A stretch of 64,000 bases of DNA, taken from positions 3,772,530 to 3,836,529 of the forward strand of contig NZ_FSRM01000002.1 in assembly GCF_900141745.1 (NCBI RefSeq). Direction: 5' to 3'. Each line of letters begins with the position of its first letter. The first letter of the stretch is position 1. Positions 7,071-26,704 of the stretch are shown in pieces. Origin of the DNA: Paraburkholderia phenazinium (GTDB lineage: Bacteria > Pseudomonadota > Gammaproteobacteria > Burkholderiales > Burkholderiaceae). The notes under the pieces are model-generated. The model made no database searches. It was not told the origin of the DNA and worked only from the letters and a program-made list of their open reading frames with translations. Both the position numbers and the translations under genes were made by a program.

Positions 7071-7078
7071 CCGTAAGC

Positions 7079-7288: not shown

Positions 7289-7315
7289 GATCTCTCCTTC
7301 CCCTTGGTCATGCCA

Positions 7316-7663: not shown

Positions 7664-7678
7664 TCAGGATTTCCCTAA
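7664..7678. promoter_or_regulatory. Candidate regulator site, TYAGG-N5-CYTAR family
   Basis: The sequence TCAGGATTTCCCTAA differs at one base from TTAGGATTTCCCTAA at 20580-20594 and is related to sites at 13570-13584 and 53795-53809. It lies 100 bases upstream of the small gene starting at 7564. The imperfect inverted repeat resembles sites bound by NarL/LuxR-type regulators, one of which is encoded right beside it. Binding is untested. Confidence 0.35.
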
Positions 7679-7706
7679 TAATCCTTAGACATTTAATGCG
7701 CGCTGG

Positions 7707-9964: not shown

Positions 9965-12132
9965 GGTGCCGGCCTTTGCACAAGATTTTGTTCGACCAAC
10001 TCAAGAATCGCCTTCGACTGGTAGCCCTTCGCCAGTAGACGCACCTGCTCCGCGAATGGGGCATAGCGTGCGTCGAGTGCCGCGACGCGCTCGCTCCAGA
10101 GCGAAATTTCCCTCATGTCGCCATGCCGGGCGAGGCGGTGCAACTCGTTCATTTCCTGCGGCGGCACGGCAAGACTCGCTTCGGACAACGACACGCCCTG
10201 TTGCGCCGTTGCGGGTGCCGTCGCCGGTGCTGTTGCATACGTCCACTCCAGGCCGAGCAACGCCGCGATCTTCTCAAGCAGCCGGTCGAAATCGACTGGC
10301 TTCGGGAGAAAGGCATTCACGCCGGCGTCGAGGCTCCGTTTCTCGTCAGTGCCGGACGGACTCGCGGACACCGCGATGATCGGCACATCCGCAATGCCCG
10401 GCGACTGGCGCAGCCGCTGGGTCACTTCGAGGCCATCCATGTCGGGCATCACGATGTCTGTAACAACCAGCGACGGCCGCTCGTGTTGGGCCTGTTCAAG
10501 CCCTTCACGGCCGGTCGCCGCTTCGACGGTGTCGAACCCGAGCCGCTCGAGCAAAGTAATGACAACCGCACGATTGACCGGCACGTCGTCGATCACCAGC
10601 ACCTTCCTGCGCGGACCGTCGTAGCCCGTCACATCCCGAGCGGGCGGCGCAGTCACCGGGGCGTCCGGCAGCGCGTGCGCTGCCGCAAGCTCGAACCAGA
10701 ACAGGCTGCCTTCTCCAACCCGGCTCTCGACGTGAATCTCGCCACCCATTGCGCGGACGAACTGGCGGCTGATCGCAAGACCCAGCCCGGTGCCGCCAAC
10801 CCGGCGCTCGGGCCGGCCGACCTGTTCAAAGGGCTCGAAAATCGTCTCCAACTGCTCAGCGAGCATGCCGACACCCGTGTCCCGTACCTCGAAGCGCACT
10901 GCCCGCGGCCCAGCCCTCATGATATGCAGACTCACGCTGCCATGGTCCGTGAATTTGACGGCATTCGCGAGCAGATTGAGCAGCACCTGGCGCAGGCGCT
11001 GTCCGTCTGCACGCACGCCGGCAGGCGCATCGCCGGCGATTTCGCAGATGAAATCCAGACCCTTCTGCTCCGCCTTCACGCCGATGATCTCGCGCAGCAC
11101 GTCAACCAGCCCCGCCAGCGGCACGTCGCCGATCTGGACGCGCAATTTGCCGGCTTCGATCTTTGCGAAGTCGAGCGTGTCGTCGATCAGCGTCAACAGG
11201 TGTTCGCCACTGCGCTGGATCACCGCGACACCTTCGAGCTGCCGCTCGCCGAGCGCGGGGTCACGCCGCAAGATCTGGGCGTAGCCGAGAATGCCATTCA
11301 GCGGCGTGCGCAATTCGTGGCTCATGTTGGCCAGGAATTCGCCCTTGGCGCGATTCGCCGCCTCGGCGGCCTGGCGTGCCTCGCGCTCCCTCGCGGCCGC
11401 GCGCTCCTCGAGATACGCACGATGCAGCCGCGCGCCCATCGCGTTGAACGCCGTCACCACGCGATCGAGTTCATCCGGCGCGTCGGGTGCCCGCCGTTGC
11501 AGGCCAAGCGGCTGCGGCGTCTCGTGAAAGTCGTAGTCGCCGACACCGCTCGCGATCGCAGCAAGATGCCGCGTCACGAGCCGGGACAGGATGTAGATTG
11601 CAAACAGCGAAACGAGGAACGTATTGGCCGCCTGGCTCACCAGAATGAGCAGCGCCGTATGCGTCAGTTCGTGGTACAGATTAGCCAGAGTGGCCTGGAC
11701 ATAGAGCGTGCCGATCCGCTGATCCTTGCCCTGCACCCGGTAAAGCAGCGGAAATTCGCGGGCTATTGCCGGACCAGCCGTGCGCCGCCCTGCCGTCACG
11801 ATCATCGGCGCGGCACCCGCACCGGCTTCGATAACCTCGGCGGCGCAGATATCTTCGAGACGCAGAATGCCGTCCAGCTCGATTTGCAGTTGCGGCTGAT
11901 CGAGCCGCCAGAGCGCCTCGCCGACGCCGCCGCTGTAGCTTCTGTCGATGTCCGCGAGACGATTTTGGACCCGTTCGATTCCTCGGTCATAATCACGGTA
12001 GAGTTGCAACGCAGTCAGCAAAAGCGTGACTACGCAGCTGAAAAGGAATACCGTCGCGAGAAGCCGCAGAACCACGCTGTGGCGAAAGCGATTGAGTGAA
12101 CTCCACCATGCGCCGAACGTGTTGAGAGCCAT
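9961..12132 (-). CDS. Membrane hybrid sensor histidine kinase with C-terminal receiver
   Basis: A 723-residue kinase, first gene of the three-gene relay. Two membrane segments (about 20-43 and 158-183) enclose a periplasmic sensor of about 110 residues. HAMP/coiled coil follows, then HisKA with His272 in '[15 protein letters not shown]', an ATPase domain (380-482) with '[13 protein letters not shown]' and '[10 protein letters not shown]', and a receiver with Asp559 in '[13 protein letters not shown]'. The C-terminal 60 residues form a helical tail that could be a degenerate transfer domain, but I see no clear HPt His motif. GGGGGA precedes the ATG. The divergent gene for a solute-binding-like protein suggests a ligand-sensing pair. 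Confidence 0.94.
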
Positions 12133-12247
12133 ATTCCCCCGCGAGTGCCCTGGTTCTCGTTTTCCCTATTCTGCACTCGTTGCCGATCCGCGGTCTACCC
12201 ATAGAGCGCCGGGTAGCAGCGCGCCACGGCGCCGAAGCGCCCTCTCG

Positions 12248-13123
12248 GTGGTGCGTGGCCTCGCCGCGGGGCTGCTTGTCTGCGCTGCGACCGTCCTGCC
12301 CGCGTTCGCCCTGGATACCGTCAAACCGCTAAAGTCTGATGAATTCCGGGTTCGCTACGCCTACCCATTCGAACTCCTTACGGAAGTACTCAAACGTACG
12401 ACGCCAGCCTACGGCCCTTACGTCGAAGAGCCCTACACCGAAACCATTTCGGTCGCGCGTTCGCATGAAGAAGCCCTGAAGGGCGACCGTATCAACATCA
12501 TGATCAGCGATGCAGGGCACAAGGAATTCGACGAGGACATGATTCCCGTTCCGTTCCCGATCGACAAGGGACTGCTCGGCTACCGCGTTGCGCTGATCGA
12601 CTCGGATAACCAGTCGAAGATCGACGCCGTTCAGACGCTCGAGCAACTCCGCACGCTGTCGGTCGGCCAGGGAAGCAACTGGGGCGACGTCCGCGTCTAT
12701 GAATACAACCATGTGCCCGTAAGAACTGCACAAACCTACGAATCGCTTTTTCTGATGCTTTTACATGGACGTTTCGACCTGTTTCCACGGGGCGTCACGG
12801 AAGCCCCGGGGGAAGTACTTGCCTATGGCCCTCAGTATCCGCGCCTCGTAATAGATCGGCACCTGCTGATCCGCTACCCGTTCGCGCAGTTCTTTTATGT
12901 CAGCAAGTCGGAGCCGCGGCTCGCCGCCCGCATCCGCGATGGGCTCGAGCAGATGAAAAAAGACGGCAGCTTCGACGCGTTCTTCAACCAGCACTTCGCC
13001 CGGCAACTCATCGATCTCAAACTGCCGGATCGTACCGTCATCGAGCTCAAGAATCCGTACTTGCCGGCATGGGTTCCGTTGTCGCGCAAGGATCTCTGGT
13101 TCGATCCCAATTCGCTGCGCTAG
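12248..13123 (+). CDS. Periplasmic solute-binding-like protein (family 3-like)
   Basis: Predicted exported protein related to extracellular solute-binding proteins, about 291 residues. The start is uncertain: the frame is open far upstream, into the divergent kinase gene, but a GTG at 12248 or 12251 gives a normal signal peptide (VVRGLAAGLLVCAATVLPAFA, cut before LDTV). No strong ribosome site is seen there. 'TLSVGQGSNWGDVRVYEY' and 'RDGLEQMKKDGSFDAFFNQHF' resemble family 3 binding proteins. There is no transporter next to it, so it may work as a ligand-binding partner of the divergent hybrid kinase rather than in uptake; this is inference. Confidence 0.75.
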   Translation: MVRGLAAGLLVCAATVLPAFALDTVKPLKSDEFRVRYAYPFELLTEVLKRTTPAYGPYVEEPYTETISVARSHEEALKGDRINIMISDAGHKEFDEDMIPVPFPIDKGLLGYRVALIDSDNQSKIDAVQTLEQLRTLSVGQGSNWGDVRVYEYNHVPVRTAQTYESLFLMLLHGRFDLFPRGVTEAPGEVLAYGPQYPRLVIDRHLLIRYPFAQFFYVSKSEPRLAARIRDGLEQMKKDGSFDAFFNQHFARQLIDLKLPDRTVIELKNPYLPAWVPLSRKDLWFDPNSLR

Positions 13124-13153
13124 CCGGCTTGCCAGCCAGTCAGATCATGCAGA

Positions 13154-13462
13154 TCAGCCGGCCATGGCGAGCGTATCCGGTACCGAGGCGTGTAACAGGA
13201 CCTCGTCCACCAGATCTGCCACATTCAGCAAGGTCCGCTCGACCGCGCCACCTAGCATTTCACTGTGGGTTTTGCGCAGTTCCCATAAAGTCTCGCCGAG
13301 CCTGCGAATCGATGCAGGCTCGCTATCGGTCAATGGCCAGCAATGCAGCAGATACGCCAGCGAGGTAACGTTTCGCTGCTCACACCATGTGTCGAACAGA
13401 TGCATGCAGATCGAGTTGATCTGCTCCACTGCATTTTCGCGCTCGGACAGATAGGGGAACAT
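13154..13462 (-). CDS. Protein of unknown function (102 aa)
   Basis: A 102-residue, mostly helical soluble protein; no known family is recognised. It has two Cys near residues 19 and 28 ('CMHLFDTWCEQRN') and one at about 41, many Leu, and no signal peptide. The codon pattern fits the genome. It is convergent with the solute-binding gene. A TYAGG-like element is centred about 115 bases upstream of its ATG (13570-13584). No clear Shine-Dalgarno is visible, which lowers confidence. Confidence 0.55.
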   Translation of the reverse strand: MFPYLSERENAVEQINSICMHLFDTWCEQRNVTSLAYLLHCWPLTDSEPASIRRLGETLWELRKTHSEMLGGAVERTLLNVADLVDEVLLHASVPDTLAMAG

Positions 13463-13569
13463 GGCGCACCAACCGGATAAACGATTTCGATATCCAATGC
13501 TAGGCGCGCGGTCAGCGGGTTGCAGTCAGGAAGCGTGGAAAATGCCCGACATGGATGCTGAATCGCGGG

Positions 13570-13584
13570 TCAGGAAATCCTTAA
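13570..13584. promoter_or_regulatory. Candidate regulator site, TYAGG-N5-CYTAR family
   Basis: The sequence is TCAGGAAATCCTTAA, related to the elements at 7664, 20580 and 53795. It lies in the 177-base gap between the YadH-like permease gene and the 102-residue unknown gene, 108 bases upstream of the latter's start. Confidence 0.3.
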
Positions 13585-13639
13585 TGCAACGCGACAGGGT
13601 CGATAAGGCTGAATCGCCGGACCGGAGCATAGCAGACCG

Positions 13640-14401
13640 TCAGCTCTTCAACCGGTACCCCGTCTTGAAGATCCACGCGACGATAACCAGAAAAATGGCC
13701 AGGAACAGCGCGGTCATGCCGAGACTCACCGCGACGTCCACATCTGCCAAGCCGTAAAAACTCCAGCGAAAACCACTCACCAGGTACACGATCGGATTGA
13801 ACAGGGTCACGATCTTCCAGAACGGCGGCAACATATTGACCGCATAGAAGCTTCCGCCGAGAAACGTCAGCGGCGTGATGATCAGCAGCGGCACGAGCTG
13901 CAGCTTCTCGAAACTGTCCGCCCAGATGCCGATGATGAAACCAAACAGGCTGAACGTCACCGCGGTGAGCACCAGAAACAGCACCATCCAGAACGGATGC
14001 AGCACTTGCAACGGCACAAAGAGCCCGGCAGTAGCGAGAATGATCAGTCCCAGCAGAATCGATTTGGTTGCTGCCGCACCGACGTAGCTCACCACGATCT
14101 CGAGATACGAGACCGGCGCGGACAACAACTCGTAGATCGTTCCTGTGAACCGTGGAAAGTAGATCCCAAACGACGCGTTCGAAATGCTTTGCGACAACAG
14201 CGACAGCATGATCAGCCCCGGCACGATGAACGCGCCGTAAGTGATGCCGTCCACTTCCTTGATGCGCGAGCCGATTGCCGCGCCGAACACGACGAAATAC
14301 AGCGAAGTGGAAATCACCGGCGCAATAATGCTCTGCATCAGCGTGCGCCAGGTGCGCGCCATTTCGAACTTGTAGATTGCGCGGATTGCGTAAATGTTCA
14401 T
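13640..14401 (-). CDS. yadH: ABC-2 type transporter permease, YadH-like
   Basis: Membrane subunit of an ABC exporter, 253 residues, close to the length of E. coli YadH (256). About six membrane segments; the family pattern '[21 protein letters not shown]' after the second segment, '[18 protein letters not shown]', and the C-terminal '[19 protein letters not shown]...[14 protein letters not shown]' are recognisable from the YadH/DrrB family. It is coupled to the ATPase gene by ATGA at 14398-14401. The substrate is not known for this family. Confidence 0.93.
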
Positions 14402-15324
14402 TGATCACCTCTCAGCAGACTGACAAAGATGTCTTCGAGCGAACTCTGCGTCGTCTGCAGATCCTTGAAGCGAATGCCTGCGTCTTCCAGCGCTTTGAGC
14501 AAGGCAATGATGCTGTTTTGCTCGCGTTCCGTGTCGTAGGTGTAGATCAACTCGTTGCCATCCGCGGAGAGCGTGAGGCGATAGTCGGCGAGCGCAGGCG
14601 GCACCTGTTCCAGCGGACTTTCGAGTTGCAGTGTCAGTTGCTTCTTGCCGAGCTTGCGCATCAGTTCGGCCTTGTCTTCGACCAGCATGATCTCGCCCGC
14701 GTTGATCACGCCGATGCGGTCGGCCATTTCTTCGGCCTCGTCGATATAGTGCGTGGTGAGAATGATGGTCACGCCGCTCGCGCTCAGCGAGCGCACCAGT
14801 TGCCACATGTCGCGCCGCAACTCGACGTCGACACCCGCCGTGGGCTCGTCGAGAAACAGCACGCGCGGTTCATGCGAAAGCGCCTTGGCGATCAGCACAC
14901 GGCGTTTCATGCCGCCCGAAAGCTGGATGATCTTGTTGTTACGCTTTTCCCATAGCGACAGGTCCCTGAGCACCTTCTCGATGTACGCAGGGTTCGCCGG
15001 TTTGCCGAACAGTCCGCGGCTAAAAGAAACCGTGGCCCAGACCGTCTCGAACGCGTCGGTAGTGAGTTCTTGCGGCACCAGCCCGATCAGCGAACGCGCC
15101 GCCCGGTAAGCAGTGCCAATATCATGACCGTCCACCACCACGGAGCCTTCCGACGCCTTCACGATGCCGCAAATGATACTGATCAGCGTGGTTTTGCCGG
15201 CACCGTTCGGTCCTAGCAACGCGAAGATCTCGCCACGGCGAATCGATAGATTGATGTTTTTAAGCGCGTGGAAACCGGAAGCGTAGGTCTTGGAGAGATT
15301 CGTGACAGAGACGACAGGCTGCAT
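14398..15324 (-). CDS. yadG: ABC transporter ATP-binding protein, YadG-like
   Basis: Cytoplasmic ATPase of an ABC-2 exporter. I start it at the ATG at 15324, giving 308 residues, the length of E. coli YadG; a TTG nine bases earlier is possible. Walker A is GPNGAGKTT, the Q-loop is 'IGLVPQEL', the signature is [15 protein letters not shown], Walker B is '[13 protein letters not shown]', and the switch His is in '[13 protein letters not shown]'. The C-terminal extension ends '[15 protein letters not shown]'. It forms a two-gene operon with the permease. Confidence 0.94.
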
Positions 15325-15429
15325 GGAGGACAAGGGTACGGACGCAGCTGCCGGTTGGGTTTGCCGGGCCGCAGCCCGGAGAGATGTTTCGGAATCGATG
15401 ATGATCCTCGCAATGTAAAGGGAAGCGCG

Positions 15430-15972
15430 TTATCGCTGGGGTATCTCGAACACGAGACAGGTCGTCGTAGCATGCGCATACAAGGTGCCGTCGGGCCCGA
15501 CCAGGCGCGCTTCAGCGGTTGCCAGTTGGCGGCCGCAATGAATCACTTTGCCCTCAGCACGCACACGTTTTACGCGGGGCGTCAGCCCCTTCACGTAGTT
15601 CACGCTGAGTTCGGCCGTGGTATAGCCTCGTCCAGGCGGCATCTTCGTGTGTACGGAACAGCCGAGTGCCGAATCGAGCAGCGTGGCGACCCAGCCGCCG
15701 TGAATCGTGCCGAGCGGGTTCAGATGCTGTGCCCGCGGTTCACCCTGAAACACGCAGCCGCCGTCACTGACTTCCACAATCGTGAAGTCCAGGGTCTTCG
15801 CTATCGCTGCGTAGGGTACTTCGCCGCGCAGCATGGCCTGCAGGAATTCCAGCCCGGTTTTGCCGGCAACCTGTTCGGGGCTTGCCAGTCCGGGGCCCGG
15901 TCCCGCTTCCAGCCGGCTCACAATCTCCGCCTCCTCGGCGAGCCATGTCTCGATCACTTGTTCGGATGTCAC
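15430..15972 (-). CDS. Hotdog-fold acyl-CoA thioesterase, PaaI-like
   Basis: A 180-residue protein that probably hydrolyses acyl- or aryl-CoA thioesters in the cytoplasm. I use the GTG at 15972 as start because GGAG lies seven bases upstream; the frame is open further up but contains no family-like sequence. The hotdog core has 'LNPLGTIHGGWVATLLDSALGCSV', the PaaI-type HGG active-site block, and 'GYTTAELSVNYVKGLTP'. The N-terminal 60 residues are an added helical segment. Gene order suggests no pathway link to its neighbours. Confidence 0.9.
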   Translation of the reverse strand: MTSEQVIETWLAEEAEIVSRLEAGPGPGLASPEQVAGKTGLEFLQAMLRGEVPYAAIAKTLDFTIVEVSDGGCVFQGEPRAQHLNPLGTIHGGWVATLLDSALGCSVHTKMPPGRGYTTAELSVNYVKGLTPRVKRVRAEGKVIHCGRQLATAEARLVGPDGTLYAHATTTCLVFEIPQR

Positions 15973-16183
15973 TGCAAATCTCCGTGTTTTATTGATGTTT
16001 CGCGCGGGCTGGGGCCGCTCGGCCGCCCTCCGCGCGCGCCATCTTTCGCTCCAGACTGGCGCGCATCGCCGGCCATTCGGTGTCAATGATACTGAAGCGC
16101 ACGGAATTTCGCTTACGGCATGGCGTAACCCCGCCATCGCGGCGAGGGTGTTAAAGCGCTCCCAGGAAATGAGAGACGCAAAT

Positions 16184-16204
16184 CCGCGGCCATTGCGGCC
16201 GCGG
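16184..16204 (-). terminator. Hairpin terminator after the chemosensory-like operon
   Basis: CCGCGGCC at 16184-16191 pairs exactly with GGCCGCGG at 16197-16204 around a five-base loop. On the minus strand it lies 48 bases after the stop of the CheY-like gene and is followed by ATTT, so it probably ends the four-gene operon. Confidence 0.55.
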
Positions 16205-16251
16205 CAATCCAGGCGTGCGGAGACTAAGCGCCCCTGCACACCCGGTGTCAA

Positions 16252-16617
16252 TCAGCTTGCCAGCTTCCTGAACGTTTCCAGCACGGCATCGCCCTTGAAC
16301 GGCTTGACGATCCAGCCCTTCACGCCCGCTGCCTTGCCGCGTTCCTTCATCGCCGGGCTGCTTTCGGTGGTCAGCATGATGACGTTGACCGTGCTGTTGC
16401 CGAGTTCACCACGAATCTTTTCGACCATCGTCAGGCCGTCCATGTTCGGCATGTTGACGTCGCTGATCACGAGCCTGATGCCCGGATTGCCCTTGAGCTT
16501 GGTGAGGCCGTCCTTGCCGTCCACTGCCGTATCGACGTCGAGACCATTTTTCTTCAGGAAGCCGGCTACCTCGTCACGCACCGTGCTCGAGTCATCCACA
16601 ACAAGAATTTTCGACAT
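16252..16617 (-). CDS. CheY-like single-domain response regulator
   Basis: A 121-residue stand-alone receiver. The acidic pair is in 'KILVVDDSSTVR', the phosphoacceptor Asp is in 'RLVISDVNMPNMDGL', the conserved Thr is in 'VIMLTTESS', and the Lys is in 'GWIVKPFKG', so all phosphorylation residues are intact. AGGAA lies before the ATG. It is the last gene of the operon 20368-16252, after the kinase, MCP-tip and CheX-like genes, so it is the expected output. With no DNA-binding domain it should act by protein contact, as CheY does on the flagellar motor; the true target is unknown. Confidence 0.95.
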   Translation of the reverse strand: MSKILVVDDSSTVRDEVAGFLKKNGLDVDTAVDGKDGLTKLKGNPGIRLVISDVNMPNMDGLTMVEKIRGELGNSTVNVIMLTTESSPAMKERGKAAGVKGWIVKPFKGDAVLETFRKLAS

Positions 16618-16660
16618 GTCTATTTCCTATGGCATCGATCAAAATAAGTCGAGGCCGGTT

Positions 16661-17212
16661 TCAAAACAGTTCAAGTTCACCGCTGGTATCTTCGAGCGCG
16701 CTCGCTTCGGCGACAAAATCGATCGGCGCATGCGCACACATGCAAATCGTCGCCCCCAACCTGACGGCATCGTTGATCGACACGGAATACGACGCCAGAA
16801 ACTCCGGCTTGAGCGCCTCCAGATAGGGCCTGCAACGTGCGCTCAGCACATAAGGCGTCGACATGCCCAGATCCGGAAAGTACTGGAGCAACTCCTGATT
16901 CACGGCTCCACAGCACAGATTGCAGATCTCAAGAAACACTTCCAGGAAGGGACGCTCCGACTCTTCTCTTAGGAAGTAGCCTTGCGTACGCTCGTCTTCA
17001 TCGTACTGAAGAATCAGCAGCAGACGGAACGCAATTCCGGAGATCGTCAGGATAACCAGGTTGCCATCGGACAGGCTGTGTGCGCCATGCGCATCCGCCG
17101 GGACGATCTCGCAGACGTCGCTCGCCTCCATCGTCAGGCGCGATCTGATCGCCCTGAAGAAGATGTGTTCAACGCTTTCCTTTGCATGAGCACTGATCAC
17201 GTCGATACCCAC
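16661..17212 (-). CDS. CheX-like chemotaxis phosphatase
   Basis: A 183-residue protein of the CheC/CheX/FliY type, which dephosphorylates CheY-P. The motif E-I-C-N-L-C-C-G-A-V-N in 'FLEICNLCCGAVNQEL' carries the Glu and Asn that form the active site in that family. A second shorter segment 'SINDAVRLGATICM' may correspond to the other half of the fold. The start is a GTG that shares one base with the TAG stop of the upstream MCP-like gene, so the two are translated together. It would limit the signal lifetime of the CheY-like protein encoded after it. Confidence 0.8.
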   Translation of the reverse strand: MGIDVISAHAKESVEHIFFRAIRSRLTMEASDVCEIVPADAHGAHSLSDGNLVILTISGIAFRLLLILQYDEDERTQGYFLREESERPFLEVFLEICNLCCGAVNQELLQYFPDLGMSTPYVLSARCRPYLEALKPEFLASYSVSINDAVRLGATICMCAHAPIDFVAEASALEDTSGELELF

Positions 17213-17934
17213 TAGTGAAGCGTTGCCTGAAACTGGTTGGCCAGCGACTCGACACTCGAGAGCGACGCGGCAATCATCTTGCCGCCTGCCTGGATGTCCT
17301 GGAAGGTCGCCGTGGTCGTCAGGTCGTTTCTATGCAGACTGTCGCGGTAACTCTTCGACAGCTCTTCCGAGCGCGCAGCGAGTGCCCGCACTTCACTCGC
17401 TACCACCGCGAAACCACGGCCTGCCGTGCCCGCACGGGCCGCCTCGATCGACGCATTCAACGAAACGATCACCACGTGACGAACAATCGAAGACAGCTCG
17501 TGGTTTTTCGTGTGCATGTCCTGGTTCTGCGTCATCAGCGAGATCATCTGTTCATGCCAGCGTTCGAACGTGCCCGCCAGACCTTTGAGGCGCGCGGCTT
17601 CCGCCGCAAGCTGAGCGGCCTTGTGCCCCAACTGGTCCTTGCTGTCGAGCGCGGCCTTCAGCTCCGTGCGCACTGCGTCCGCGCTGTCCGACTGCGTCTT
17701 CAGCTCGTCGCGCAACTGGGCGAGCGTGGCTTCGAGTTCCTGCATGTGTTGCTCGTGCACGCCGATCAACTCGCGTTGCGCGGCGCTCGCCTGCGATAGC
17801 GTTGCCGTCTGACGATCTGCTTCCGCGCGCAAGCGGTGCACCGCCCTGGCGCTCGCCAGGCGGTACGCGGCCAGTGCCACGAGAGCGGTGACGGCGCTGC
17901 CGGCCAGCGCTGCTACTAGAACCTGTTGAATCAC
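17212..17934 (-). CDS. Membrane-anchored MCP signalling-tip protein without sensor domain
   Basis: A 240-residue protein with an N-terminal membrane helix (about 2-22), a long Ala/Gln/Glu-rich coiled coil (25-140), and then the highly conserved chemoreceptor tip 'VSLNASIEAARAGTAGRGFAVVASEVRALAARSEELS'. It has no periplasmic ligand domain and no HAMP domain, so it cannot be an ordinary receptor; it looks like a scaffold that contacts the kinase. I take the GTG at 17934 as start because AAGGA is six bases upstream; an earlier TTG at 17940 is possible. It lies between the kinase gene and the CheX-like gene. Confidence 0.85.
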   Translation of the reverse strand: MIQQVLVAALAGSAVTALVALAAYRLASARAVHRLRAEADRQTATLSQASAAQRELIGVHEQHMQELEATLAQLRDELKTQSDSADAVRTELKAALDSKDQLGHKAAQLAAEAARLKGLAGTFERWHEQMISLMTQNQDMHTKNHELSSIVRHVVIVSLNASIEAARAGTAGRGFAVVASEVRALAARSEELSKSYRDSLHRNDLTTTATFQDIQAGGKMIAASLSSVESLANQFQATLH

Positions 17935-17983
17935 AGCCAATCCTTCCGAATGTCAATTACAGTGAGCGGCAAGAGTCAGCCGC

Positions 17984-20368
17984 TCAATCGGCCAGCGTAT
18001 CGAGTTCCAGCTGGTCCGCATCGCCGCGTGTCGGGATGCCCGCGGTATCGACCGCGAGGCTCGCCGGCAGACTCACGATGGTCTGGAACTGGCGGAAACC
18101 GGCGCCCTTGTGGTCGTCGGTGAAGCGCAGGGCGATGCTGCCGTGCTCACGCCTGAGGAAGTCGCGCACAGCGTCCATACCGACACCGCGGCCCGATACT
18201 TCGGTAACCTTATCGGCCGTCGAGAAGCCCGGACGGAAGATCATCTCGGCGATTTCCTCGTCGCTCAGCTCCTGATCGGCTGCAATCCAGCCCTTCTCGA
18301 GCGCCATGCCGCGAATCCGCTGCAGCGCGAGGCCGCGGCCGTCGTCGCTGAGCGTGATCTGCACCGTTTCCCCGTGCATGCCCACTTCGATATTGATCGC
18401 GCCCGCGGCGGGCTTGCCTTGCGCAGTGCGCACGTCGGCGGTTTCGAGACCATGGTCGACGGAATTGCGCAGCAGGTGCATAAACACGTTCTTCAGCGCA
18501 CCACCCGCCTCACGCCGCAAGCGGTAGCCGTTGTCGTCAATCTGCACTTGCGGCGTTGCCTTGCCTAGTTCCTGCGCCAGCGACGGCAGCGATTCGAGCA
18601 CGCCCGACAGCGCCTCGCCCACGCTTTCCGTACCGAGAATGCGCAAAGCCTGACGCACGTTGTGGCGCATCGACTGGAGAGCGTGCAGATCGTCGGCCTT
18701 CGCGGCTTCAAGCAAACGCAGGCTCTCCTGAATATGCGCGATGTCGACCATCAGGAAACGCTCCGCGCTTTCGCGGTGGCTCGCACCCTTGCGGCCAAGG
18801 CTGACTTCGTTGATCGTCGCGTAGCTCTCGACAGCGGCGCGCACACGGGCCAGTTCCTGCATCAGACTGTCCTGATCCCACGCCTCGTGCACCTCTTCCG
18901 AATGACGCAGTTCGTGATAACGCTGCTCAGTCTCGTGCACGATGTTGGTCAGATGCTGCAGGTTGTAGGTCCGCGCGTTGCCCTTGATGGTGTGCATGTT
19001 GCGGAACAGCTCCGAGATCGCTTCGCGGTCCGCCTGCGAATGCTGGCGAATGATGCGCTCGTTCTCGTTGATAAAGCCCGCGGAGCTCTCGATGAAGTGA
19101 TGGAACTTCTCTTCGCTCACCGCCAGAATTTCGCCGATCATCTCCAGCTGGCGCCTCTGCTCGCCGGCCTCTGCCGCGAGCTTGCGCAACTCGGTGACGT
19201 CGCGAATGCACAGCATCAGACGCACGATCGTGTCGCTGTCGTCGGTGATGGCCGACCAGTTCAGATCGAGAATCTTCACGCGGCCATCGGGCATGCGCTT
19301 CGAGATTTCGGTGACCAGCAGGTGTTCGTTGAACGCAAAGTTGATTGCATCTTCGCCGAGACACGCGAAGCTCGCGGCATCGACTTGCGACAACACGTCC
19401 GCGCCGAGATCGGTATCCGCGAACACCAGGTCCATCAGACTGCGGCCCGCAATGTCGTTGGTCTCGAAGATCGCTTCCAGATAGGCGGAATACTCGGAGT
19501 GGACCACCGCCCCTTCCACCACGGTCAGAATGCCCTGCTGCATGTTCTGCAACATCGCCTGAATGTCCGCGGTCTTCTGCTTGAGTTGCAGCGAGCTTTC
19601 CTGAATCTTCTCGATCATGCCGTTGAACGCCACGATCGAGTGACCGATTTCGTCCATGCGGCCCACCGGCACGCGACGAGTGAAGTCCTGGCTCGATGCG
19701 ATCTCGCTCATCATCTCCTGCATGCGGGTCAGCGGGCGCGTGATCTGGCGATACAGCAGCGACCCGATCGATGTCAGCAGGATGATCGCAATACCCGTGA
19801 CGATTGCAATGGCGGTCGTGGTCGTCGCCAGCGTACCGTTCAGCGTGGTGATGGCCTCGTCTTTCTCGCGGTTCTTCTCGATGCGCAGCGTCTCGACGAT
19901 GCCTTCGAGCTCGTCGCGATACTGGGCCACATTCGCGAACAGATACGCTTGCGCCAGCTCGTTCTTGCCGGCGGCCTTCATCTTGGCGGTGTCGTCGATT
20001 GCCGAGAAATAGTTCTCGAGGCTGTCGGCCGCCTGGGATACGAGACCCTTCTGCGCCTGGCTGGCGGCGTCGTGCGCCTGCAAGGCAAGCGCCTGCTGCA
20101 AGGTCGCTTTCTTCTTCGTGAGTTCGTCCTGAGCCTGCGCGACGACGTTGCCGTCCGGCGCATACACGAGCGTCATGATGGCGAGCTGCACGTCCTTAAC
20201 CTGAGAGACCAGATCGGCCGAGGCGAGCGCGCTAGGCACTACCCCTTCTGTGACCTGCTTGACCTCGGCGGCGCTGTGCCGGGTCTGATAGACCGCATAG
20301 CCGCCGATGGCGGACAGTGCGACGAACATCAGAATTACCAATAGCGTGATGCGATGACGGATAGTCAT
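17984..20368 (-). CDS. Membrane CheA-like histidine kinase: sensor-HAMP-PAS-HPt-P4, no P5
   Basis: A 794-residue kinase that fuses receptor and CheA parts. Order: membrane helix 8-28, periplasmic four-helix-bundle sensor 30-183, membrane helix 184-206, HAMP 207-262, PAS-like domain about 268-392, an HPt-like domain with His459 in 'FRNMHTIKGNARTYN', then a CheA-type ATPase with 'LLRNSVDHGLE' (632-642), 'DDGRGL' and 'GFSTADKVTEVSGRGVGMDAV'. It stops right after 'VSLPASLAVD', where CheA would continue into the CheW-like P5 domain, which is absent. First gene of the operon; a FliA-like sequence lies upstream but points the other way. Confidence 0.92.
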   Translation of the reverse strand: MTIRHRITLLVILMFVALSAIGGYAVYQTRHSAAEVKQVTEGVVPSALASADLVSQVKDVQLAIMTLVYAPDGNVVAQAQDELTKKKATLQQALALQAHDAASQAQKGLVSQAADSLENYFSAIDDTAKMKAAGKNELAQAYLFANVAQYRDELEGIVETLRIEKNREKDEAITTLNGTLATTTTAIAIVTGIAIILLTSIGSLLYRQITRPLTRMQEMMSEIASSQDFTRRVPVGRMDEIGHSIVAFNGMIEKIQESSLQLKQKTADIQAMLQNMQQGILTVVEGAVVHSEYSAYLEAIFETNDIAGRSLMDLVFADTDLGADVLSQVDAASFACLGEDAINFAFNEHLLVTEISKRMPDGRVKILDLNWSAITDDSDTIVRLMLCIRDVTELRKLAAEAGEQRRQLEMIGEILAVSEEKFHHFIESSAGFINENERIIRQHSQADREAISELFRNMHTIKGNARTYNLQHLTNIVHETEQRYHELRHSEEVHEAWDQDSLMQELARVRAAVESYATINEVSLGRKGASHRESAERFLMVDIAHIQESLRLLEAAKADDLHALQSMRHNVRQALRILGTESVGEALSGVLESLPSLAQELGKATPQVQIDDNGYRLRREAGGALKNVFMHLLRNSVDHGLETADVRTAQGKPAAGAINIEVGMHGETVQITLSDDGRGLALQRIRGMALEKGWIAADQELSDEEIAEMIFRPGFSTADKVTEVSGRGVGMDAVRDFLRREHGSIALRFTDDHKGAGFRQFQTIVSLPASLAVDTAGIPTRGDADQLELDTLAD

Positions 20369-20579
20369 TTATGCAAATCCCCGAGGTCTAGCGTGTGATT
20401 TTTGCTCTTCATGAGAGCCGCCCGACCTTGTTGTGTTGGTCGGAATTGTCGGGCGCCACGATTATCGTAGACCGCATGTGACAGATCGATGACTAAAGAT
20501 AGCGCCCTGATTTAAACGCCTAAGAAATTAAAGCAGAATAAAACGTAATTATTGCGAATCTTGAATATGCGCAATTTAT

Positions 20580-20594
20580 TTAGGATTTCCCTAA
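20580..20594. promoter_or_regulatory. Perfect TTAGG-N5-CCTAA inverted repeat
   Basis: TTAGGATTTCCCTAA has perfect half-sites TTAGG and CCTAA. It is the most symmetrical member of a family seen also at 7664, 13570 and 53795, and it overlaps the -35-like part of the FliA-like sequence. It lies in an AT-rich gap 212 bases upstream of the CheA-like gene, so it could control the chemosensory operon, the rightward promoter, or both. Confidence 0.4.
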
Positions 20595-20618
20595 AGTTTT
20601 TTCGCTTGATGCCGTTAA
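20592..20618 (+). promoter_or_regulatory. FliA (sigma-28)-like promoter, rightward
   Basis: TAAAGTTT at 20592-20599, an 11-base spacer, and GCCGTTAA at 20611-20618 match the flagellar sigma-28 consensus (TAAAGTTT-N11-GCCGATAA) at 15 of 16 positions. It points right, away from the chemosensory operon, antisense to the small gene 20663-20914 and towards the ArsC-like gene at 21010. Confidence 0.5.
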
Positions 20619-20662
20619 TACTTCGCCCTTTGCTTTCCATGCGTCGCGTACGACGTCACGAT

Positions 20663-20914
20663 CTAGCTCAGCACCCTCAGGCGGCGCCACCGCGTATCCA
20701 TGTCTTTCAGCAGAGCGATGTAGCTCACGGCGCGCTCGGTACCGAGGCTCGCGCTCGCGGCTTCGTTGGTCTCATTCCACAATCGCTCGAAGCGATTCGC
20801 CGCCTCCAGTCTCGCAAGCGGCTGGTTCAACAGAACGACAAATGCAAAAGACAGTTCTTCCACGCTTCGATGCATCTGTGAATGCACCGACATCGATTTG
20901 GCAAAGTGATTCAA
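20663..20914 (-). CDS. Small protein of unknown function (83 aa)
   Basis: An 83-residue protein with no recognised family, rich in Leu, Ala and charged residues, probably helical ('LARLEAANRFERLWNETNEAA'). The start is a TTG at 20914 with GAGGG five bases before it; an ATG at 20893 lacks such a site. It is divergent from the ArsC-like gene and upstream of the chemosensory operon on the same strand, 294 bases away. A reading frame on the opposite strand has a far less protein-like composition. Confidence 0.5.
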   Translation of the reverse strand: MNHFAKSMSVHSQMHRSVEELSFAFVVLLNQPLARLEAANRFERLWNETNEAASASLGTERAVSYIALLKDMDTRWRRLRVLS

Positions 20915-21009
20915 ACGGCCCTCAAGCGTTAGTTGTCATAGGTACGCAAAACTCCATCAGCACAATTCTCAACAAAGATTGTCACCAGAATATTACGGGG
21001 GTAGTTCAG

Positions 21010-21525
21010 ATGAGCCGGAAATGCAATGTGTTGTTCCTGTGCCGCGCGAATTCCGCGCGCAGCGTCATGGCCGAAGCGCTGCTTCGCGAGCTCGGCGGCG
21101 AGCGTTTTGAAGCGTTTAGCGCCGGCATTGAACCAGCTGACGACGTGCACCCCCTCACGCTTGCACAACTACGCCCCACGATAGGCGATCTCGGCAGAGT
21201 GCGGCCAAAAAGCTGGAACGTCTATACGAAAGCAGATGCACCCGTGATGGACGTGGTGATCGCAATGTGTGAAGAAGCCGGCGAAGCGCATGCGCCCGCG
21301 TTTCCCGGCAAGCCGATCTTCTGCGAGTGGAATTTTGCGGACCCGCTCGCAGCAGGCAGCGACGACGCCGAGCAAAAGCGTGTCTTCGAACAGGTGTTCC
21401 GGCAGATTCTGCGTCGCATCAGCGTGTTTGTTGCGCTTCCGCTGCACTCGATGCAAGCATCCGAACAGCGGCTCGCGGTCAATTCGATGGACGAACACGC
21501 GCCGCCCTCGATTGCAGTCGAGTAA
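21010..21525 (+). CDS. ArsC/low-molecular-weight tyrosine phosphatase-like protein
   Basis: A 171-residue protein of the LMW-PTP fold. The P-loop C-R-A-N-S-A-R-S (Cys11, Arg17) holds the nucleophile, and 'EWNFADP' provides the general-acid Asp. Thioredoxin-coupled arsenate reductases need two more cysteines in a 'C-x6-CP' segment; here the first is kept in 'AMCEEAGEAHAPAFPG' but the second is replaced, so arsenate reduction by the usual route is doubtful. The C-terminus is extended by about 30 residues. GGGGG lies nine bases before the ATG. The PiT phosphate transporter follows 193 bases later on the same strand, which suggests a link to phosphate or arsenate. Confidence 0.88.
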   Translation: MSRKCNVLFLCRANSARSVMAEALLRELGGERFEAFSAGIEPADDVHPLTLAQLRPTIGDLGRVRPKSWNVYTKADAPVMDVVIAMCEEAGEAHAPAFPGKPIFCEWNFADPLAAGSDDAEQKRVFEQVFRQILRRISVFVALPLHSMQASEQRLAVNSMDEHAPPSIAVE

Positions 21526-21718
21526 GCACCGCACCACGAGCGGAAATGAACCCTTCGCAGGCATGCCGCGTGCTGCCGCAGTCGTCGCACGGTGCAAAAG
21601 CAGCGCACCGTCGCTGACTTAAAAGGTTCATCGGGGCAACCTAGGATGAAACGTTCGCACTCACGGAGCAGCCAGCCGACATCCGCGACTTTGCCCCCCA
21701 CCGCTTCCGGGAGTGCAA

Positions 21719-23143
21719 ATGCTCGTTCACTTCATGCCGTCATCCGGCATCGTCGTCGCCATGCTGGTCGTCTGTCTCGTGATGGTGCTGGCATTCGAGG
21801 CGACCAACGGTTTCCATGATTCCTCCAACGCGGTCGCCACCGTCATCTACACGCAGTCGCTCAAACCTGGCCAGGCCGTGATCTGGTCCGGTCTGATGAA
21901 TTTTATCGGGGTGATGGTGGGGGGAATTTCTGTCGCCTATGCGCTCGTCGAAATACTGCCGCCCGATGTGTTGACGCCACCGGACGGTTCGCCCGCCGTC
22001 CCGATGCTGGTGTCGATTTTCGCGGCGGCCCTGTTCTGGAACATCCTGACGTGGGCGTTTGCGATACCCAATAGCAGTTCACATTGCATCATCGGCGCGC
22101 TGATCGGCGTCGCGGCAGCCGACGCGCTGATCAAGGCGCGCAGCATGACGCAAGGAGTGGACTGGAAGCAGATCGTGATCGTACTGAAGGGGCTTGCCAT
22201 TTCGCCGATACTGGGCCTGCTGCTGGCTGGCGGACTGTACGGCATCATGCGGCTCGTGGTGCGGCGCGGTCATCTGTTCGAAACACCGAAGGAAGGCCAG
22301 CCACCGGTCTGGTGGCTAAGAGGGCTGCTGGTTCTCACGTGTACCACGGTCAGCTTTTCGCACGGCACCAATGACGGTCAGAAAAGCATTGGCCTCATCA
22401 TGTTGACGATCATCGGTCTGCTGCCGGCTGCATACGCGCTCAATCCACAGGCCACCGGTCAGATGACCGAACTCAGCCAGAACGCGGCAGCCGCAATTCC
22501 ACTGATTCAGCGCTATGGCGACGACGTCAAGGATCAGGCGCTGAAGTCCGCGACCTTGCTGCAAAACGCCGGCCCGCAACTGGCCAGCGAGGCGCACGAA
22601 CTCAAGACCCACGACGATTCTGCGAATTCACCGCAAACGGTGGCGGTGCGGGCACAACTGCGCGGAGCCGTGTACGATGTGCTCTCGGAACTCAAGCACG
22701 TCGGCGAGCAGAACGGTGCCAGCAAGGACGAGAAGGCGCAGGCAACGGATCTGCTGAAGAAAATGGGCCCGCCGGTGCAATATGCGCCATGGTGGGTTCG
22801 TGTGCTAAGCGCGCTATGCCTGGGTATCGGCACGATGATTGGCTACAAACGCGTGGTACGTACGTTGGGCGAACGGCTCGGCAGGCAACATATGACGCCG
22901 GGCCAAGGGGCCAGCGCGGAACTGGTCGGCTCGGTGCTGATCGGCACGGCTGGATTTACTGGACTACCGGTCAGTACAACTCACATCATTACGTCGGGAA
23001 TTGCCGGCACGATGGTAGCGGGTGGCCAGGGTGTGCAAGGCGGTATGCTATGGCGTATCGCACTCACCTGGCTGGTTACCTTGCCTGTCACGATCCTGCT
23101 TTCCGCATGTTTATTCTACTTCCTTGCGAACCCCAACTTCTGA
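21719..23143 (+). CDS. PiT-family inorganic phosphate transporter
   Basis: Inner-membrane phosphate:cation symporter of 474 residues. The two inverted PiT signatures are visible: 'FEATNGFHDSSNAVATVI' near the N-terminus and 'FSHGTNDGQKSIGLIML' in the middle. Between the two membrane halves is a 110-residue hydrophilic loop (about residues 245-360) with Ala- and Lys-rich helical sequence. The C-terminal half has 'GLPVSTTHIITSGIAGTMVA'. I start at the ATG at 21719 because GGGAG is five bases upstream; a GTG six bases earlier is possible. Confidence 0.95.
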   Translation: MLVHFMPSSGIVVAMLVVCLVMVLAFEATNGFHDSSNAVATVIYTQSLKPGQAVIWSGLMNFIGVMVGGISVAYALVEILPPDVLTPPDGSPAVPMLVSIFAAALFWNILTWAFAIPNSSSHCIIGALIGVAAADALIKARSMTQGVDWKQIVIVLKGLAISPILGLLLAGGLYGIMRLVVRRGHLFETPKEGQPPVWWLRGLLVLTCTTVSFSHGTNDGQKSIGLIMLTIIGLLPAAYALNPQATGQMTELSQNAAAAIPLIQRYGDDVKDQALKSATLLQNAGPQLASEAHELKTHDDSANSPQTVAVRAQLRGAVYDVLSELKHVGEQNGASKDEKAQATDLLKKMGPPVQYAPWWVRVLSALCLGIGTMIGYKRVVRTLGERLGRQHMTPGQGASAELVGSVLIGTAGFTGLPVSTTHIITSGIAGTMVAGGQGVQGGMLWRIALTWLVTLPVTILLSACLFYFLANPNF

Positions 23144-23213
23144 CGACCAACACGCGCGCGGTGCCGGTTCCGCGCAACGCTCCGAGCCCCCGGCGGGGAC
23201 CTGGGCGAAACTC

Positions 23214-24221
23214 ATGACGCGACTGCACATACGTCATGCGGCAACCACATTGGCCGTACTCGGCGTCGGACTCGCAATGGGTGCGCCGTTTATCCTCGGC
23301 GCGCATGACGTGCTGACCGGCTTACGCAGCGTCTCCCTGCAGATCTTTGCGGTGCTGGCGGCAAGCGCCGCGCTAAGCGCTGCTGCCAAGGCGGGAAAAC
23401 TGCATCTGATGCAAGGCGCGCTTGGCCTGCGGCTACGCTTCCTGCGCACGCTAACGATTACCGTCGTCACCGATTTCGCATTTCTCGTCTCGCCGTTGGG
23501 CGCAGCGGGCTACGGCGTGAATATGGGCCTGCTGCAGCGTTCGGGAGCCTCGTGGGCACTCGCCACCACGGTGGTCGGCGCGGACCAGGCGTTAGACCTG
23601 ACGTTCTTCGCGGCCGCCGTGCCGCTCTCGTTGCTGCTCGCGCTCGGACCGCTCAGTCAGGTGACGCCGAACTTCCCGTTATCCACCGTCCTCACCGTAC
23701 TGGCGGCGCTCGCGATCGTCGTGGCTGTGCTGTGGCTCTGCCGCCGCCCCGCCGTCGCCGCGCTCGACGCAGCGGGGCGACGCATCGTATGGCTGCGGGC
23801 GCGGCGCGCGCGCTGGACCCGCTTTCGCCAGAGCGTAGGGCGGCAATGGGTGCTGCTGCTGACGGGGCCGCGCTGGCGTCTTGCAGCGCTGCTGGTGTTG
23901 ACCACCTTGCAATGGCTGCTTCGTTACAGCGCGCTGTGGTTCATCCTGCATGAACTCGGCTATCGCTTGCCACTTGGCTTCGTGCTGGCGGTGCAGGCCG
24001 TCGTATTGCACGCGGCGCTGTGGACAGGCGTGCCTGCCGGAGGCGGCAGCGGCGATCTGGCGCTGGCCGCCGCATTCGCGCCATGGGTGCCGCGCGCGGC
24101 CATGGCGACCGCGCTCGTGCTGTGGCGCTTTGCGACGCTCTATTGCCCGTTACTGCTAGGCGCTGCAGGCTTTATCGCGCTGGCGTGGCGCCGCCGCGGT
24201 GCCGTACCGCTCGCACAATAG
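23214..24221 (+). CDS. YbhN/UPF0104-like flippase-type membrane protein
   Basis: A 335-residue polytopic membrane protein with about eight hydrophobic segments, similar in layout to the lysylphosphatidylglycerol synthetase transmembrane (UPF0104) group. Features are 'TDFAFLVSPLGAAGYGVNMGLLQRSGASWALATTVVGADQALDLTFF' in the first half and 'GVPAGGGSGDLALAAAF' in the second, matching the family's glycine-rich conserved loops. It starts 70 bases after the PiT gene and converges with a glycosyltransferase gene; these proteins are often encoded with glycosyltransferases and are thought to move lipid-linked molecules, so a joint role in lipid modification is plausible. Confidence 0.8.
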   Translation: MTRLHIRHAATTLAVLGVGLAMGAPFILGAHDVLTGLRSVSLQIFAVLAASAALSAAAKAGKLHLMQGALGLRLRFLRTLTITVVTDFAFLVSPLGAAGYGVNMGLLQRSGASWALATTVVGADQALDLTFFAAAVPLSLLLALGPLSQVTPNFPLSTVLTVLAALAIVVAVLWLCRRPAVAALDAAGRRIVWLRARRARWTRFRQSVGRQWVLLLTGPRWRLAALLVLTTLQWLLRYSALWFILHELGYRLPLGFVLAVQAVVLHAALWTGVPAGGGSGDLALAAAFAPWVPRAAMATALVLWRFATLYCPLLLGAAGFIALAWRRRGAVPLAQ

Positions 24222-24265
24222 AGTGCCGGGCACCACGTCAAAGCCAGGCGCTTTCTCAAAGACCC

Positions 24266-25015
24266 TTACGCGGCCGTATCGCGCGGCTTTCTGATTCTTA
24301 CCGAAAGCCGAGCGCGGCCCGGATGATCGACCCGCAGGACAAATAGCTGCAGCGTCTGGGTAATCAACGCAAGTGGGTAGGTCACCTTCAGCAGATCGGA
24401 GATCATGCGCCACTCGGCGCGCACGCCCTTCCAGTAGCCGAGCTTTTCGGTCTTGCGCGCCTGCGTGACGTGCGGCCAATGCGTGACCGCAATCGAAAGC
24501 CGGCGCGAGATGATGCGCCGGTTCATGAACATTTCAATGCCGAAGCGCGGCAAGCCATGGATTTCCTTGAGCGCTTCGTCGAGCAACTGCTTTCTGACGA
24601 CGCGCTCCCCGGAGACGAAATCAAGGCCGATAAAGCGAAACAGCAGCAGGCTGTTCTGCCGCAGGCTCATGCTGACGTCGGCGCATCCACTCAGGACGGG
24701 GGCGGCCAACGCGCTGATGTGGTCGAGTGCCAGGCCCTTCAGATCGGCATCGAGCAGCATAAGCCACTCGTGCTCCGCGGCTGCTATACCCACAGCCATC
24801 GCCGCGCTCTTGCCGCGGTTCTGCGCGCATTGGATCAGTCTGACCGAAGGAAAGCGCCTGACGATGTCGGCCGTGCCGTCAGTCGAGCCATCGTCGACGA
24901 CGATGACTTCGGCTAGCAGCGGATGGACCGACGCCACCGCCAGCACCGCAGCGATACGCGGTGCTTCGTTATAGGCGCAAATGATGCATGAAACCCGGTG
25001 ACCTCTAGATGGCAT
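24266..25015 (-). CDS. Glycosyltransferase family 2
   Basis: A 249-residue GT-A fold glycosyltransferase. 'VSCIICAYNEAPRI' starts the nucleotide-binding fold, 'EVIVVDDGSTDGTADIV' gives the first Asp pair, and 'WLMLLDADLKG' the DxD-type metal site. The start is the ATG at 25015 (MPSRGHRV), since sequence upstream is not family-like. The C-terminal part has an amphipathic region ('VTYPLALITQTLQLFVLRV') that may attach to the membrane. It converges with the flippase-like gene, 44 bases apart. The acceptor is unknown. Confidence 0.9.
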   Translation of the reverse strand: MPSRGHRVSCIICAYNEAPRIAAVLAVASVHPLLAEVIVVDDGSTDGTADIVRRFPSVRLIQCAQNRGKSAAMAVGIAAAEHEWLMLLDADLKGLALDHISALAAPVLSGCADVSMSLRQNSLLLFRFIGLDFVSGERVVRKQLLDEALKEIHGLPRFGIEMFMNRRIISRRLSIAVTHWPHVTQARKTEKLGYWKGVRAEWRMISDLLKVTYPLALITQTLQLFVLRVDHPGRARLSVRIRKPRDTAA

Positions 25016-25243
25016 AGAAAATAGTCGTCGTATTGCGGGAGGGGACAGCCCGGTCAAGCGGACCTGGCGAACGGCAGACGTCCGATTTTGACCGCGTTTT
25101 ATGACCGTTTCATCTGCTTCACGATTGCCGAGCAGAGAACCACATGAAAAAGTCGTTAGCGTGACAAGCGAACGAAAAATGCGTGAATCATGAAGAGCCC
25201 GTGCCTCCATTACGCCGCATCGTGCACACCCGCTCCCCCCGCT

Positions 25244-26704
25244 TTACATTCGCGTAAGCACCCGACCGTTGCGTGCGCCGCGGGGCGCGCCATGCCGCCA
25301 GGTCAGCATGCCGTTGACGATCACCGCTTCGATGCCTTCGGCGGTCTGGATAGGGTCGTCATAGGTCGCGCGATCGCGTACCGTGGCCGCATCGAACACG
25401 ACGACATCCGCATGCTTGCCCACTTCGATAGTCCCGCGATCCTTGAGGCCGAAGTTTTTGGCGGTCAGTCCGCTCATCTTCCAGACCGCCGTTTCAAGCG
25501 GAAATAGACGCACGTCACGACTATAGTGGCCTAGCACTCGCGGGAACGTTCCCCACAAACGCGGGTGAGGCTTGCTGCCGCCAGCGAGGCCGTCGGAGCC
25601 GATCATCGTGTCCTCGAAGGCCATGATGTTCCTGACGTCGCCCTCGTCCATGCTGAAATAGACCGCGCTTGCCGGCTGCAGACGCTGTGCGGCTTCCACA
25701 CGGCTTACTTTCCATTCGTCGGCAATCTCGGCAAGCTCGCGTCCCGAGTATTCCGGGTAAGGCTCGCTGGTCGCGATCACGACACGCCCCTGTAGTTTTT
25801 CCTCGACCGTATGCAGCATCGTCGAACTGGCGGTGTACGGATAGCAATCGAGCGCGACGCATTGGCACTGCATTGCGGCACGGATCAGCGGCAAGGTTAC
25901 AACCGACTTGCCGAAGTTCGCTTCCCGCATCAGTTTGTGGTGCGAAATGACGACACGTACATCCAGCGCCCGGCCAATGGCAAAGGTTTCATGCAGAGAA
26001 TCCACACAGCCTTCCGCCTCGTTGCGCATGTGCGTCGCGTACACGGCGCCGGTGCCCGTCAGCGGACGGCACACCTCGATGACTTCCGAAGCAGGTGCTA
26101 GCGCTGCGGGCGGATAGTAGGTACCCGTCGATACACCGATTGCTCCCGCGTCTAACGCTTCGCTCAGCAGGTCGCGCATCGCCGCGATCTCTTCATCAGT
26201 GGCCGCGCGATCGAGCGAGTCCATTGTCATCACGCGCAACGTGGTGTGTCCCACCATGGCGGCGACGTTCACCGAAGCAGGGGCCGCGCGTAGCGCATCG
26301 AGGTAATCGGCAAACCGCCCAAAAGCGGATGCCGTCGACGGGTCGCGTTGCTGCAGCAGACTAAGCGGTAAAGGCAGCGCCATGTTCGCTTTGAGTGGTG
26401 CGAGGCTAACGCCGCAATTGCCAGTGACCACGGTGGTCACGCCCTGCGAGATCTTGCAGATCATCTCGGGGTCGGACAGCACGGACTCGTCATCGTGAGT
26501 GTGCGAGTCGATAAAACCCGGCGCTACAATGTTGCCACCGGCATCCAGGTCAGCACGCGCGGCTTGCCCGGACAGATCGCCGATGGCAACGATCATGCCG
26601 TCGCGAATGCCGACATCCGCATCGAAGCGCGGACGGCGCGTGCCATCGACGACCGTGCCGCCGCGAATCACCAGGTCGAAAGGACGCGGAGTGTGCTCGC
26701 TCAT
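25244..26704 (-). CDS. N-acyl-D-amino-acid deacylase (D-aminoacylase)
   Basis: Amidohydrolase of 486 residues that would release D-amino acids from N-acyl-D-amino acids. The metal motif is 'GFIDSHTHDDESVL' (His68, His70), and 'VTGNCGVSLAPL' carries the Cys that helps bind metal in characterised D-aminoacylases. Later family blocks are 'VVISHHK' and 'GSDGLAGGSKPHPRLWGTFPRVL'. It is the last gene of a leftward operon after an M81 peptidase gene (10 bases away) and an MFS carrier. With the D-amino acid dehydrogenase at 30664 it makes a route from acylated D-residues to keto acids. Confidence 0.94.
   Translation of the reverse strand: MSEHTPRPFDLVIRGGTVVDGTRRPRFDADVGIRDGMIVAIGDLSGQAARADLDAGGNIVAPGFIDSHTHDDESVLSDPEMICKISQGVTTVVTGNCGVSLAPLKANMALPLPLSLLQQRDPSTASAFGRFADYLDALRAAPASVNVAAMVGHTTLRVMTMDSLDRAATDEEIAAMRDLLSEALDAGAIGVSTGTYYPPAALAPASEVIEVCRPLTGTGAVYATHMRNEAEGCVDSLHETFAIGRALDVRVVISHHKLMREANFGKSVVTLPLIRAAMQCQCVALDCYPYTASSTMLHTVEEKLQGRVVIATSEPYPEYSGRELAEIADEWKVSRVEAAQRLQPASAVYFSMDEGDVRNIMAFEDTMIGSDGLAGGSKPHPRLWGTFPRVLGHYSRDVRLFPLETAVWKMSGLTAKNFGLKDRGTIEVGKHADVVVFDAATVRDRATYDDPIQTAEGIEAVIVNGMLTWRHGAPRGARNGRVLTRM

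Follow-up and report, generated by a model that had tools for sequence, protein, structure and literature searches.

We examined a window of 64,000 nucleotides from Paraburkholderia phenazinium (assembly GCF_900141745.1, contig NZ_FSRM01000002.1), in which four reverse-strand genes at 16252–20368 encode, in order of transcription, a receptor-kinase (KIN), a protein resembling the signalling tip of a methyl-accepting chemotaxis protein (MCP; here MCPt), a CheX-like protein (CHX) and a CheY-like receiver (CHY). The initial annotation had taken these genes for a chemosensory-like operon, and that operon is real. The module is conserved and of chemosensory type, with one gene lacking from the window copy; the earlier observation was right, and understated what is there. 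The features of the locus, in order of transcription, are:

17984..20368, reverse strand: receptor-kinase KIN, 794 amino acids
19886–20368, reverse strand: four-helix-bundle (4HB) sensor of KIN
19598–19759, reverse strand: HAMP domain of KIN
19196–19567, reverse strand: PAS-like domain of KIN
18839–19075, reverse strand: Hpt domain of KIN
18098–18499, reverse strand: CheA-type HATPase domain of KIN
17212..17934, reverse strand: MCP-tip protein MCPt, 240 amino acids from a likely GTG
16661..17200, reverse strand: CheX-like protein CHX, 179 amino acids from a likely GTG; the open reading frame (ORF) itself begins at 17212
16664..16681, reverse strand: C-terminal tail GELELF of CHX, common to the fifth protein of relatives
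16618..16660, reverse strand: 43-base gap at the place where most relatives have a fifth gene, encoding a pseudo-receiver plus CheX domain of about 320 amino acids
16252..16617, reverse strand: CheY-like receiver CHY, 121 amino acids
16184..16245, reverse strand: two strong stem-loops (16209–16245 and 16184–16204) 3′ of the last gene

Anatomy of the operon and its proteins

With likely GTG starts at 17934 and 17200, both placed by homology and spacing, the intergenic gaps are 49, 11 and 43 bases. The former start has an AGGA ahead of it (read by eye), and the latter (MISAHAK) matches relatives. Of the description of the genes as overlapping or closely spaced, the close spacing holds; overlap hinges on the choice of start codon. 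The hairpin said to close the operon is likewise real, as RNA of 16165–16251 folds into two stems (−45.8 kcal/mol, z −4.4), but it has no T-run and was not listed by a terminator scan. As for the claimed absence of CheW, CheR and CheB, a Pfam scan gave no CheW match in the four operon proteins; no homologue of any of the three was spotted by eye in flanking ORFs at 12000–26000, where CheR and CheB were not profile-searched. Elsewhere the window's genome has nine CheW matches.

Receptor and kinase are merged in one chain, as had been proposed. In Pfam, KIN comprises 4HB_MCP_1 (residues 1–161), HAMP (204–257), a weak PAS match (268–391), Hpt, or P1 (432–510, E 3.3e-8), and HATPase_c (624–757). 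Its P4 region best matches CheA models and solved CheA over about residues 587–773, an alignment that begins about 37 residues ahead of the Pfam ATPase match, and the match to Thermotoga maritima 1b3q (379 residues) stops at chain residue 250; KIN ends near the P4/P5 boundary. Among 17 family kinases (one incomplete at a contig end), neither H-kinase_dim (P3) nor a CheW (P5) domain was matched. The tail following GRGVGMD is 41–84 residues long in 74 of 75 family kinases, the exception being truncated (L019), compared with 178 and 314 residues in two further kinases of CheA type that the window's genome encodes. Regular expressions matched the Hpt motif in 63 and the N box in 34 of these 75 kinases; the motifs either vary more than the patterns as written or are partly lost. 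The sensor is exchangeable across the family, with 4HB, TarH, GAF, PAS or 7TMR-DISM modules set before a P1 and P4 of CheA type. According to Berry et al. 2023 (PMC10782961), P1, P3, P4 and P5 form the CheA core and a CheW domain is present in 100% of a data set of 13,673 CheA sequences. KIN falls outside that core definition and yet, we think, probably works like CheA.

MCPt had been described as an MCP signalling tip without a sensor, and this description agrees with our scan, which gave MCPsignal (E 9.6e-16, signalling hairpin at about 17335–17517) and no sensor family in Pfam. Its N-terminus, read by eye, is a hydrophobic helix followed by a coiled coil. Across 46 family tips, the equivalents of Tsr N381, E385 and G390 are present in all 46, R388 in 44 and R394 in 41. 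The equivalent of Tsr 373 is never Phe in these 46 tips, and one of V, I, L and M occupies position 375 in 44 tips and position 376 in 42; a canonical MCP of the window's genome reads F-QTN at Tsr 373–376, positions that are important in canonical arrays for trimers and for contact with CheA and CheW. Phe is nevertheless not universal at 373 in ordinary tips, as five QTN-type tips in the fetched loci have Phe there in three cases and Glu in two. One MCP-tip protein (L020, 10084–10896) also ends in an acidic-hydrophobic FELDF, like the CheX-type tails described next.

CHX has the CheX/CheC fold and, as had been noted, the ExxN motif, formed by E91 (16928–16930) and N94 (16919–16921). The pair is invariant in 60/60 aligned CheX-like sequences, and E and N are also invariant in the fifth-protein family. 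The Pfam CheX score of CHX is 13.4 bits, below the gathering cut-off of 27, and its match to solved CheX is weak and centred on the ExxN site; in two relatives the fifth protein scores above that cut-off, with 33.6 and 36.6 bits. G-E-L-E-[LMF]-F or a near variant ends 59/60 CheX-like and 56/57 fifth proteins, the exceptions being one residue longer. This tail was absent from 13 stand-alone CheX-type proteins of other genomes, which were picked by profile match and size and not individually checked (a fourteenth, L169, was excluded as a wrong ORF). In the structure model of CHX, residues 168–178 have a pLDDT (predicted local distance difference test) below 50, i.e. low-confidence and disordered. 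CheZ is a phosphatase with a comparable layout, a short C-terminal CheY-binding peptide behind a flexible linker; its fold is unrelated to that of CHX, whose tail docking is only predicted.

CHY is the intact receiver that had been reported (E 5.5e-24), with the full catalytic set D8, D9, D53, T83 and K105. The first four residues are found in 79/79 aligned CheY rows and K105 in 78, the remaining row having a gap. The position of Escherichia coli Tyr106 is occupied by Trp at residue 102, as it is in the closest solved receiver, Vibrio cholerae CheY4 (4hnr, 4h60). Median identities to the window copy, which exclude nine Paraburkholderia loci, are 77% for CheY, 49% for the kinase, 45% for the MCP tip and 36% for the CheX-like protein.

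Distribution of the module and the fifth gene

The CheX-like gene is present in 110/117 genomes of the genus Paraburkholderia, 141/299 of the family and 5/274 of the class, the window's genome being counted each time. Its product has 325 protein relatives, and the named ones among 120 listed belong to Paraburkholderia or Burkholderia. The initial annotation had suggested looking for the same gene order across Burkholderiales. In 53 newly fetched Burkholderiaceae loci, the best matches of the genus and family searches with part of the kinase in view, the order and common strand of all four genes are kept throughout (53/53), and they are conserved together beyond Burkholderiales as well. Many beta- and gammaproteobacteria have this gene set, mostly in a five-gene form. 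The four-gene set as first described is thus jointly conserved, but the usual system has a fifth gene, relative to which the window copy looks reduced.

Among the 53 Burkholderiaceae loci, this fifth gene, whose receiver part has no phospho-acceptor, is full-length in 28, shortened in 7 and absent from 18. On a quick tree of MCP-tip and CheX sequences (77 rows, supported by the Shimodaira–Hasegawa-like approximate likelihood ratio test only), its absence needs 10 changes, at least 7 of them forced by starred branches, and the window copy pairs with a single further fifth-less locus (in genome G332) inside a clade of fifth-gene bearers. Loss is the simpler reading because nearly all distant rows carry the gene, and the form with four genes thus seems to be derived. 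A fifth-less locus occurs in 20 genomes, of which 17 have no copy at all (E ≤ 0.001), three of these being less than 90% complete; the window's genome, G332 and G572 each have a fifth-gene copy at another locus. Of 398 genomes searched phylum-wide, 31 gave a match to the fifth gene, 5 of them full-length and the rest short matches to the CheX or receiver part.

Several individual loci are worth recording. A second, five-gene copy in the window's own genome (L017, G000:C2:2702000-2721000, at 6116–11218) has TarH rather than 4HB_MCP_1 as its best-match sensor. In a single clade within one sister genus (L069, L070, L072, L073, L075, L076 and L078), the fifth protein is shortened to 211–221 matched residues, and in L069, read individually, the receiver part is missing. 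At L019 (7695–12558) the module is apparently decaying: the kinase is about 300 amino acids long, no fifth gene or CheY was found, and, by eye, a pstB-like gene split by a transposase-looking insert is followed by a phoU-like gene. At L149 (6917–9493) a module-less fifth-gene homologue adjoins a triple-CheW protein, with FliW-like and FlgL-like genes close by (read by eye).

A proposed phosphorelay and its alternatives

The gene content and its conservation, the missing P5, the CheX fold, the common tail, the absent fifth gene and the co-occurrence with flagella are observed; from this anatomy we infer a mechanism covering phosphate flow, phosphatase activity, tail docking, the role of the tip, and output. 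The membrane receptor-kinase would sense through its own four-helix-bundle/HAMP/PAS input, its CheA-type ATPase domain would autophosphorylate the Hpt histidine, and the phosphate would then pass to the operon's CheY. The CheX-fold protein would dephosphorylate CheY through ExxN while holding it by the C-terminal GELELF tail. The initial annotation had cast the MCP tip as a scaffold or activator; its hairpin bundle would most likely pack on the kinase and set its activity directly, replacing the CheW-linked array. In cells with flagella, phosphorylated CheY may then adjust an output related to motility. Further regulation would come, in most relatives, from the second CheX-fold protein with its dead receiver, which is missing from the window copy. 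We lean, by a little, towards this reading of the operon as a compact chemosensory-type phosphorelay with CheW-free control of the kinase by the tip and a motility-related output. Across the family the module co-occurs with flagella: FliM is found in 141/141 genomes with the CheX-like gene and in 91/158 without it (Fisher p 8e-23).

Several observations weigh against it. CheW is present in all 53 genomes checked (48 of 80 contig-search loci plus 5 genomes from earlier searches, all with the module or part of it, including G675 with a lone fifth gene at L109, G689 with the partial L126, G232 with a decaying module and G239 with no linked kinase). A CheW-free genome with the module was sought, and 0/53 qualify, so that a need for the main CheW is not readable from gene content and the self-contained system proposed in the initial annotation stays putative. 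The presence of CheW in all 53 genomes, and of FliM in 51 of them, suits an explanation in which the tip and kinase join CheW-linked arrays as a side input to the main array, the operon's CheY competing for the main CheA or serving it as a phosphate sink; the retention by the tip of the N381 and E385 equivalents throughout, and of R388 and R394 in most cases, fits it too, as does the triple-CheW neighbour of the homologue at L149. We nonetheless regard a side input as unlikely, given a kinase without P5, a tip altered family-wide at the Tsr 373–376 equivalents, and a phosphatase-type protein and CheY that travel with the kinase. A further point against the favoured phosphorelay is that module parts are not always linked: L126 is reduced to kinase, fifth gene and CheY, and no kinase lies within reach at L089.

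The output is also open to challenge. CheY4 of V. cholerae, a Trp-CheY like CHY, is reported to be unable to bind FliM (PMC3774744), which speaks against direct binding of the motor by CHY. The flagellar correlation is uncorrected for phylogeny, and it loses strength when the family is narrowed to the genus: co-loss with flagella was looked for there, and FliM is still present in 6/7 Paraburkholderia genomes that have no CheX-like gene. No flagellar genes were recognised by eye, from protein starts, in 17 gene tables of module loci. The largest neighbour cluster, 13 genes in 12/87 loci, is of GGDEF/EAL type, with GGDEF and/or EAL in 10/10 members scanned (L085, L099, L102, L106, L112, L115, L119, L126, L127 and L134; L111 and L114 unscanned), making a link to cyclic di-GMP (c-di-GMP) possible. 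These points would be accommodated if the relay were self-contained and, like the alternative-function chemosensory systems, acted on something other than flagella (c-di-GMP, type IV pili or gene control). It seems improbable to us, because the module is nearly restricted to flagellated genomes, GGDEF/EAL genes are absent from most loci and vary in position, distance, strand and architecture where present, and 12/87 has no background rate behind it. Least probable by far is that the CheX-fold proteins are CheY-binding adaptors, with an active tail and a relic ExxN. The sub-threshold Pfam score of CHX, a tail conserved about as well as the active site, and the missing phospho-acceptor of the fifth-protein receiver would fit such a role, but E and N are invariant in both CheX-type families and the weak match to solved CheX centres on exactly that site.

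Relation to known systems and neighbouring genes

The module shares with canonical CheA/CheW/MCP systems (F1–F17, Tfp and ACF) a CheA-type Hpt and ATPase, an MCP hairpin, a CheY receiver and a CheX-type fold, and differs from them in the fusion of sensor to kinase, the lack of P5, the reduction of the MCP to its tip, and an operon without CheW (and with no CheR or CheB spotted by eye). Relative to the CheX phosphatases of T. maritima (1squ/1xko) and Borrelia burgdorferi (3hzh), CHX has an extra linker and the G-E-L-E-[LMF]-F tail, and a further relative here carries a fused pseudo-receiver. V. cholerae CheY4 is placed by PMC3774744 in a cluster with cheW, cheR, cheB and cheD, unlike the CHY operon. 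Nineteen chemosensory pathway classes are referred to in PMC6943060, as are methyl-accepting coiled-coil (MAC) proteins, which resemble MCPt in being chemosensory proteins of coiled-coil type that fall outside the usual classes of MCP; compared by name only, they are named for methyl acceptance, whereas MCPt keeps a signalling tip and has no sensor family. The earlier statement that no system with this exact gene set has been described is in line with our literature search, whose listings gave no account of it, most subscription papers being outside reach.

We hold evenly balanced the broader proposition that these loci form a widespread, unnamed CheW-independent class, comprising a one-chain receptor/CheA-type kinase, a free MCP tip acting directly on it, one or two CheX-fold proteins gripping a near-frozen CheY via a docking peptide shared at their C-termini, and an output that runs alongside the main array and most likely concerns motility. 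If true, chemosensory systems would gain a class that may be missed by surveys resting on CheA with its CheW/P5 domain. This class would be present in most sampled Paraburkholderia genomes as well as many other members of the beta- and gammaproteobacteria, and would supply a candidate six-residue phosphatase docking peptide. If the module works without CheW, an MCP signalling tip could control a kinase of CheA type with no hexagonal array around it, a finding that would bear on the very way in which receptor tips switch kinases.

A larger stable operon was considered and rejected, as neighbour clustering gave no family beyond the five in more than 12/87 loci. A phosphate link, with a PiT transporter near the operon and secreted-looking and outer-membrane-like proteins near some relatives, was dropped because Pfam gave no family in four of those flanking proteins scanned. 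Upstream of the operon, at 20842–23143 on the forward strand, the window carries a gene of a low-molecular-weight phosphatase family and the PiT phosphate transporter gene. At L083 (52–1705), L098 (4801–6497) and similar loci, genes bordering the module encode a small secreted-looking protein (about 140–150 amino acids) and an outer-membrane-like protein.
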